Assembly (NCBI RefSeq): GCF_024494645.1
Contig: NZ_JANHDJ010000001.1
Location: 124,001 to 188,000, forward strand
Origin: Halohasta litorea
Lineage (GTDB): Archaea; Halobacteriota; Halobacteria; Halobacteriales; Haloferacaceae
Length of the DNA stretch: 64,000 bases
Direction of reading: 5' to 3'
Shown: piece after piece, positions 7,847 through 61,834 of the stretch
Layout: each line of letters opens with the position of its first letter
Numbering within the stretch: the stretch's first letter is position 1
Translations under genes and position numbers: made by a program
Notes under the pieces: generated by a model
The model's input: the letters and a program-made list of their open reading frames with translations, nothing else
Database searches by the model: none
What the model was told of the DNA's origin: nothing

Positions 7847-7919
7847 GTCCCGTTAGGGTAGTGGACTATCCTATTGGCTTGCGGAGCCAGTGACCGGAGT
7901 TCAAATCTCCGACGGGACG
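7847..7919 (+). tRNA. tRNA-Arg (anticodon GCG)
   Basis: 73 nt. Acceptor stem GTCCCGT pairs with ACGGGAC; the D arm has GGG...GTGG; anticodon stem TTGGC/GCCAG closes loop TTGCGGA, giving anticodon GCG, which reads CGC; the T arm is CGGAG-TTCAAAT-CTCCG; the discriminator is G. No intron is present and CCA is not encoded. Its last 13 nt are duplicated downstream (see repeat entry). Confidence 0.93.
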
Positions 7920-8014
7920 TTCGTTCTTTCGGACTGCTTCGCTTCGCTCAGTCTCTCACGTCCCGTCTTGCTCCACGCTCACGTTCGTTCGCGTGGAACT
8001 CCGACGGGACGTTC
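7907..8014 (+). repeat. tRNA-Arg tail: direct and inverted copies of the tRNA 3' end
   Basis: A 16-nt direct repeat (7907-7922 and 7999-8014) covers the last 13 nt of the tRNA plus 3 nt downstream. Between the copies lies an inverted 10-nt copy, ACGTCCCGTC (7958-7967), which can pair with 8003-8012 or with the tRNA's own 3' end at 7911-7920. Inside that stem is a second one, TCCACGC/GCGTGGA (7972-7978 and 7991-7997). Upstream is a small GACTG/CAGTC hairpin around TTCGCTTCGCT (7932-7953). Confidence 0.9.
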
Positions 8015-8143
8015 TTCCACGGCACAACACTCTGAGAGCCCTCTGTGGCCTTGGTCTCTATACCGTAGACGGATTTTCGAGGTATAGAAACCATTATACA
8101 ACCCTCTACATCCATTTGTATTATTATTCGAATCATTAATTCT

Positions 8144-17728: not shown

Positions 17729-18723
17729 GCCGATCGCCTCCGGGCCAGCAGTGCCATCGCAAGCAGGGCGACGAGGCCGACCGCGAGGCCGAAGCCGGGG
17801 GTCTCTTCGCTCGTGTTCGCCTCTCCGCGATCACGGGCGGTCTCCTCGCCGGGTTCGGACTCGAAGTCCGAAGCCTCGAAGGCCACTTCCTCTTCCGTTT
17901 CGTCGGCGCTGATCCGCTCGCTCGGGTTGAGGTTGGCGACGCTCTGGGCGGAGTCGACGTGGACCCCATCGCGCCAGAGGACGGCGTCGACGTAGTAGTT
18001 GTACTCGTTGGGAACGCTCACCTCGGCGTCGACAGTGGCGGTGCGCCCGGCGCGAATGTCGCCGACGGGGACGGTCACGCGGTCGGCGACGACGTTCGAC
18101 TCGGCCTGTCTGGCGGTGAACGTCACTTCGAGATCGCTGGTCTGGGCGTCACCCTCGTTGGTCAGTGCTCCCGAGAGGTCGAGGCGTACCTCGCTGTCGT
18201 CGGCCGAACCGATGGCGACCGACACCGGTTGGACCGCGCCCGTATCGGCGAACTCGACGTTCGATTCGGCGTAGGCGGGCGTCAGGGCTTCGAGGCCGCT
18301 GACGCTGCGTGTGGCGACATCGACGCGCTCGCCGTCGCGGAAGACGATCGTCTCGATCCGGTAGCCGCCCTCGCGGTCGACGGTGAGGTTGGCTCGGACC
18401 GGCGTTTCGCGGTCGCCCTCAAGCAAGCCGACGTCGACGCGCCGCTCGGTTGCGACGAGGTTCGACTCGCTGTCGGTCGCCCGGAACAGCACGGTCACGT
18501 TCTCGGTCGGGTTCCCGAAGTGGCTGAGTCTGGCCTCGACGCCCAGGGTGGCCGTCTCGCCGGTCACCGCGCCCGGCGAGATGGGGACCTCCTCGATGTC
18601 GAGATTCCCCGGCCGGAGGTCGTCGGTCGGATCGGCCAGGGCGTCGGGAACCGCGACGGCGGCGACACCCGAGGCCACGACCACGACGATGGCCGCGGCG
18701 ACGACTGTCTTTTCGAGATTCAT
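17725..18723 (-). CDS. PGF-CTERM surface protein (DUF7490-like)
   Basis: 332 residues. An N-terminal signal helix (TVVAAAIVVVVASGVAAVAV) leads to two tandem beta-sandwich units of similar layout (about 45-165 and 170-275), both with VTVLFRA/VTFTAR and FRDGERVDVAT/WRDGVHVDSAQ. An acidic linker follows. The C-terminus TPGFGLAVGLVALLAMALLARRR is a PGF-CTERM tripartite signal recognised by archaeosortase A, so the mature protein is lipid-anchored at the cell surface. Family name is from memory. It lies between the regulator and copA. Confidence 0.8.
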   Translation of the reverse strand: MNLEKTVVAAAIVVVVASGVAAVAVPDALADPTDDLRPGNLDIEEVPISPGAVTGETATLGVEARLSHFGNPTENVTVLFRATDSESNLVATERRVDVGLLEGDRETPVRANLTVDREGGYRIETIVFRDGERVDVATRSVSGLEALTPAYAESNVEFADTGAVQPVSVAIGSADDSEVRLDLSGALTNEGDAQTSDLEVTFTARQAESNVVADRVTVPVGDIRAGRTATVDAEVSVPNEYNYYVDAVLWRDGVHVDSAQSVANLNPSERISADETEEEVAFEASDFESEPGEETARDRGEANTSEETPGFGLAVGLVALLAMALLARRRSA

Positions 18724-61690: not shown

Positions 61691-61761
61691 GCGCCGTTGG
61701 TCCAGTGGTAGGACAGAGCCTTCCCAAGGCTCTAGCCCGGGTTCAATTCCCGGACGGCGCA
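61691..61761 (+). tRNA. tRNA-Gly (anticodon CCC)
   Basis: 71 nt. Acceptor stem GCGCCGT pairs with ACGGCGC; D arm GTCC-AGTGGTA-GGAC; anticodon stem GAGCC/GGCTC closes loop TTCCCAA, giving anticodon CCC, which reads GGG; T arm CCGGG-TTCAATT-CCCGG; discriminator A. No intron and no encoded CCA. Its 3' end is copied in the tail. Confidence 0.94.
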
Positions 61762-61834
61762 CTCCTTCGTCGTGCGCCGTCCAACGTCCCACTCGCTCAC
61801 TCCGCTCGCTCGCGGGACTCCCGGACGGCGCACT
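61748..61834 (+). repeat. tRNA-Gly tail: direct and inverted copies of the tRNA 3' end
   Basis: A 16-nt direct repeat (61748-61763 and 61819-61834) covers the last 14 nt of the tRNA plus 2 nt. An inverted 11-nt copy GTGCGCCGTCC (61772-61782) can pair with 61823-61833 or with 61752-61762 in the tRNA itself, the latter across a 9-nt loop with CTTCG. The inner stem GTCCC/GGGAC (61786-61790 and 61814-61818) holds ACTCGCTCACTCCGCTCGCT. TTTT follows. Confidence 0.92.

Follow-up and report, generated by a model that had tools for sequence, protein, structure and literature searches.

Short non-coding units behind haloarchaeal tRNA genes carry inverted and direct copies of the local tRNA 3' end

Tail units are a real and general feature of haloarchaeal tRNA genes. 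These discrete stretches of DNA have fixed boundaries and comprise a leader, usually a hairpin, followed by an inverted copy of part of the tRNA 3' end, a hairpin core and a direct copy of the tRNA 3' end. The explanation that we consider best, and probable though well short of certain, is that they are short non-coding mobile DNA cassettes that recombine at the 3' ends of haloarchaeal tRNA genes. If so, this repeat family, which is tied to tRNA genes and occurs in the majority of the haloarchaeal genomes sampled, would represent a novel form of minimal mobile DNA; we know of no mobile element whose arms follow the gene that hosts it.

Unit architecture behind tRNA genes

The window, meaning the whole 64-kb stretch of DNA analysed, contains a complete unit behind the tRNA-Gly(CCC) gene (61691-61761, plus strand, as are the parts of both window units), which is the array host and the source of the copied 3' end. 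The unit begins with a leader (CTCCTTCGTC, 61762-61771) shared with the orthologous unit of a congener (G003). An exact 11-nt inverted copy of the acceptor end plus one base follows (GTGCGCCGTCC, 61772-61782), then a core (61783-61818) with a TCGCTC-type hairpin (TCCCACTCGCTCACTCCGCTCGCTCGCGGGA, 61787-61817) and a direct copy of the tRNA end (TCCCGGACGGCGCACT, 61819-61834), in which CT follows 14 nt of tRNA. The core hairpin is more stable on the minus strand, where GC steps alternate with GA/GA mismatches. As the original prediction had described from the letters alone, the 16-nt repeat TCCCGGACGGCGCACT covers the tRNA end plus 2 nt at 61748-61763 and recurs 71 nt further on, start to start, with the inverted copy in between; likewise, GTGCGCCGTCC and the tRNA end would close a 9-nt loop, TCCTTCGTC, with TTCG inside. 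In 2000 shuffles of the tail under a dinucleotide model, no direct match was longer than 12 nt, so none equalled the observed 16. An inverted match as long as the observed 11 nt arose in four of them and, taken alone, is only moderately surprising.

The tail of tRNA-Arg(GCG), the window's second array host (7847-7919), has the same architecture, again as foreseen. Its leader (7920-7957) is itself a hairpin and precedes an inverted copy of the acceptor end (ACGTCCCGTC, 7958-7967), a core hairpin (7968-7998) and a direct copy of the tRNA 3' end (CTCCGACGGGACG plus TTC, 7999-8014). Immediately 3' of this unit, the stretch CACGGCACAACACTCTGAGAGCCCTCTGTGGCCTTGGTCTC (8015-8070) resembles the hairpin that leads a tRNA-Ser unit of G003 (L183), which belongs to the second class described below, and is probably a decayed second unit, judging by that likeness. 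A generic intergenic hairpin was rejected as an explanation of the core, since real core hairpins in the window are confined to the two tRNA tails; similar hairpins occur elsewhere in the genome. An Rfam search of the window returned no matches besides the tRNA genes themselves. An ARAGORN call of tRNA-Ile(AAT) at 18029-18114, absent from both Rfam searches, is probably a false positive.

Units fall into two classes that differ in the part of the tRNA they invert and in the orientation of the core. Both window units belong to class I, which has an acceptor-end inverted copy and a core in the opposite orientation to that of class II; its direct copy starts at about position 61 and duplicates about 13-16 nt, in a sample biased by the way the loci were fetched. 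The common class II comprises a leader hairpin, an inverted copy of the T loop and T stem (GGATTYGAA), a core (for example TCAGGGAACG...GTGACCGTG) and a direct copy that spans G53 of the T loop to position 73, duplicating about 21 nt. The class II inverted arm covers the T loop and the 3' T stem and fits its own tRNA to about position 65. Past the search pattern, it matches its own tRNA better than other tRNAs at +1 to +3 and no further out, and in almost every one of 67 units the arm base that partners tRNA position 57 agrees. On the tRNA strand, class II cores contain 292 GA to 30 TC, and class I cores 29 GA to 133 TC. The more stable strand is tRNA-sense in 65 of 67 class II units by DNA parameters; among class I units it is antisense in 29 of 30 by DNA and in 30 of 30 by RNA parameters.

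The copies come from DNA, as they never contain CCA. We accordingly rejected retroposition of mature tRNA: CCA is missing, and the copies start upstream of the T-loop modification site. Even in the part of the acceptor that the inverted copy leaves unpaired, direct copies remain almost identical to the tRNA.

Other hairpin arrangements occur in and around the tails. In two tRNA-Asp tails (G001:C18:56320, L245; G003:C1:603352, L216), hairpins are nested in the loops of other hairpins within leaders or cores, as if palindromes had been inserted into palindromes. A different tail element, roughly CCACnTTTTT-hairpin-AAAAAnnTGGnnnAAAAAG, follows several tRNAs and units, whether or not a tRNA-end copy is present (L079, L097, L438 and the tRNA-Phe tail L024). 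A run of similar stem-CTGAACnnnGTGAAG-stem hairpins lies in a region free of tRNA genes (L066), so the hairpin style is not restricted to tRNA tails.

Distribution and covariation of the tRNA-end copies

Copies of the tRNA end lie downstream of many tRNA genes and in many genomes. We collected all 50 tRNA genes of the 3.81-Mb haloarchaeal host genome with their tails and found exact copies of 12-24 nt of the gene's own 3' end downstream of about 20, usually with an inverted copy preceding the direct one; the upstream control reached a maximum of 9. Querying with the last 21 nt of each tRNA, at up to five mismatches, gave downstream copies at 18 of 50, 16 of 44 and 17 of 46 tRNAs in three congeners (the host genome, G001 and G003), and at 0, 0 and 1 in the 150 nt upstream that served as control. 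In GTDB contigs, a pattern blind to tRNAs recovered at least 119 stretches, and the 80 loci among the matches listed all carry haloarchaeal names. Within a sample of the phylum, the same pattern was positive in 38 of the 53 genomes that share the window's archaeal order and in 0 of 242 others, and a reversed-pattern control gave zero everywhere. Among 84 units found in this tRNA-blind way, 78 lie 32-414 nt 3' of a same-strand tRNA and copy that very tRNA, covering 29 isoacceptors; the copy is identical to its host in 41 and has at most one mismatch in 59. Three of the remaining six are cut by the edge of the locus. This breadth excludes chance duplication unique to the two window loci, which had been named in advance as the finding that would undo the original prediction.

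Both copies change with the tRNA that they stand behind. Comparing tRNA-Arg(GCG) in 93 genomes, with class I units searched type-blind, we found acceptor, inverted copy and direct copy of matching type in 31 of 31 class I units, among relatives that are not independent of one another. Four acceptor types occur (TCAGGAC, TCCGGAC, CCAGGAC and ACGGGAC), and 107 of 109 direct copies match the local one. Types differ inside the same family in four families (f1, f4, f5 and f10); the copies have thus tracked several independent switches, one of them within the window's genus. The inner hairpin, which the tRNA cannot template, has two-sided changes at 6 of 9 pairs and a single G-U cell, and double-changed cells number 22 over the whole hairpin structure. 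Compared across relatives, the sequences establish copying from the local tRNA in both orientations and the keeping of hairpins by compensatory changes. The near-absence of G-U intermediates points to maintenance at the DNA level, short of proving it. The earlier claim that each tail derives from its own tRNA therefore survived the covariation comparison it had called for, and the uncompensated changes that would have counted against it did not appear.

Of the two causes then offered for this match, a process that copies the local tRNA end stands, and selection for pairing is not borne out as the main cause. In its fullest form, the pairing account gives the tail an RNA role: within a tRNA precursor, the inverted copy would pair with either the tRNA end or the decoy copy and so control folding, 3' processing or termination. 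Three-way covariation with compensatory hairpin changes is what such selection would leave, and the folding z-score is -5. The predicted Gly transcript misfolds without the direct copy, its tRNA end pairing with the inverted copy, and adopts the native fold as its optimum with it. The folding comparison lends some support to the suggested decoy, but it put the alternatives just 1.1 kcal/mol apart. Moreover, units stand behind only about a third of tRNAs and are patchy at the same tRNA between sister species, units are shuffled, class I units are structured on the antisense strand, the match of direct copies to the tRNA extends past the paired part, and G-U intermediates are almost absent. We consider an RNA role unlikely.

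Gain, loss and exchange of units

Units are gained, lost and shuffled between species. At the tRNA-Gly(CCC) locus, G003 carries one unit of each class in tandem, the host genome class I only and G001 class II only. At tRNA-Asn and tRNA-Met, a filled site exceeds its empty orthologue by precisely a single unit together with a single tRNA-end copy, which demonstrates gain or loss with fixed boundaries. The direction is indistinguishable: deletion between direct copies would leave the same empty site, so empty sites could be excisions or deletions rather than pre-insertion sites.

Tandem arrays record movement between tRNA genes. Arrays of 2-4 units occur at Asp, Met and Gly tRNAs, and a tRNA-Lys array in another genome (G241) holds six, four identical units of 111 nt followed by two others. 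Inside this Lys array, an Arg tRNA end closes one unit and the unit after it has an inverted arm of Arg type, so that a unit moved from an Arg array into the Lys array. Cores at least 92% identical also occur behind tRNAs of different amino acids; in six informative pairs, from a locus sample biased by the way it was fetched, the arms have 1 mismatch to their own tRNA and 13 to the partner's.

Identical tandem units also resemble the products of slippage, and the units may owe nothing to dedicated machinery. In polyploid haloarchaea they would then be made and homogenised by slippage during replication, recombination between short repeats and strand-switching at palindromes. Repeat-mediated deletions over 4-20 bp are known in Haloquadratum (PMC3119063), and strand-switch repair would account for the perfectly paired arms and stems and for the scarcity of one-sided changes. 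Left unexplained are the confinement of the same core families to tRNA ends, their spread over 29 isoacceptors and the class-specific fixed start points, and we rate this account as unlikely.

Each unit could instead be a scar, left by a large virus or plasmid that integrated at the tRNA and subsequently lost the DNA between its attachment sites. Integrative elements are marked by a directly duplicated tRNA 3' end, and a Haloquadratum prophage is bounded by a 22-nt tRNA duplication (PMC3119063). We judge this reading improbable: throughout the order, leader, arm and core are conserved and keep fixed positions, no large element with the same end was found near four integrase loci of the genome, and scans of phage, plasmid and viral sequences gave no unit except in a contig that includes a tRNA-Glu of its own. 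We likewise rejected large islands next to integrases, with no distal T-loop copies within 20 kb of four integrase-adjacent tRNAs. A viral attachment site was rejected too, because three scans of IMG/VR for the pattern, and a blastn search of phage and plasmid collections with a consensus unit, returned only the tRNA-Glu contig. That contig, IMGVR_UViG_3300000875_000004 (L276), is classed as viral and carries tRNA-Glu followed by a class II unit; it is either a provirus flank or misclassified host DNA.

A possible cassette mechanism and its comparison with known systems

As mobile cassettes, the units would be inserted or exchanged at the tRNA end, through strand transfer or DNA recombination, duplicating that end and leaving the tRNA intact. 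As single-stranded DNA, the inverted arm and core may form a hairpin that a trans-acting recombinase recognises, and strand exchange or strand-switch repair would fit the arms anew to the local tRNA. Simple target-site duplication does not explain the inverted arm's match to the local tRNA. Tyrosine integrases of haloarchaeal elements are the likeliest helpers, as candidates only, and spread could also proceed via general homologous or microhomology recombination. None of the places that match the tyrosine recombinase family PF00589 is next to a unit-bearing tRNA. Among the fetched tRNA tails we found neither a gene-carrying unit nor a unit-adjacent integrase, and no unit with its own cargo above a few hundred nt, on which ground gene-carrying cassettes were rejected; four long gaps among these tails are adjacent tRNA-Asp genes or decayed units. 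A separate contig of the host genome (G000:C13, 13,355 bases; L275) encodes a tyrosine recombinase; its several tRNA-like genes score low, are closely packed and lack tail units, and the contig looks like a viral or plasmid tRNA cluster.

Such cassettes would matter beyond their novelty. In laboratory strains of Haloferax and Halorubrum they offer a tractable system for hairpin DNA recombination in archaea, for the preference of integration for tRNA ends and for any effect of long tRNA tails on maturation. They also explain many partial tRNA copies in haloarchaeal genomes, which are otherwise open to misreading as prophage scars. We found no description of these tails in the open-access literature; an earlier report elsewhere is possible and novelty is provisional. 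The case for novelty rests on their architecture and on arms that track the host gene.

Integron arrays (attI/attC, IntI) are similar in architecture. Like the units, they hold short cassettes in an array behind one fixed site, and an imperfect inverted repeat, variable in its loop and preferring one strand, closes each cassette, whose boundary falls between G and TT. In architecture alone, the units are arrays of cassettes bounded by a folded inverted-repeat site. Unlike integrons, they lack gene cargo, their fixed site is a tRNA gene, and it is the host tRNA, not a short consensus, that their arms match. The integron integrase was rejected as the unit enzyme, as its model TIGR02249 scored above the curated cut-off in 0 of 16 genomes, including the one with the freshest array (G241). 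More tentatively, and with the balance somewhat against it, we propose a tRNA-anchored, integron-like system. Its single-stranded hairpin site would consist of T-arm or acceptor sequence from the host tRNA itself, a putative recombinase would act on it, and non-coding cassettes would be re-matched to each tRNA in arrays behind dozens of tRNA genes.

Tyrosine-integrase elements that attach at tRNA T loops or 3' ends share with the units a duplicated tRNA 3' end and an intact tRNA, and archaeal members favour the tRNA 3' end (PMC8371274). These elements carry an integrase and cargo and use one fixed attachment sequence, whereas tail units are about 70-250 nt long, non-coding, found behind dozens of tRNAs and equipped with an extra inverted copy; no integrase gene was found inside or adjoining them.

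Casposons and Cas1 spacer insertion resemble the units in duplicating a target site at the tRNA 3' end. The Aciduliprofundum casposase recognises TCAAATC in the T loop and duplicates 14-15 bp (PMC6614799), against about 13-16 nt in class I and about 21 nt in class II. By analogy, Cas1-type insertion would explain the local duplication. The units differ in having neither transposon terminal inverted repeats nor Cas1 cargo, and Cas1 or a casposase was rejected as their enzyme, because Cas1 (PF01867) is absent from 9 of 13 unit-bearing genomes, including G241 with its four identical units.

Haloarchaeal PATEs and IS200/IS605-type palindromic elements are small, non-coding, palindromic and common (PMC3119063), and in size, lack of coding capacity and palindromes the tail units are like them. 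IS605-type elements insert without target duplication and lie dispersed between genes; tail units duplicate tRNA ends and sit there, as 78 of 84 do.
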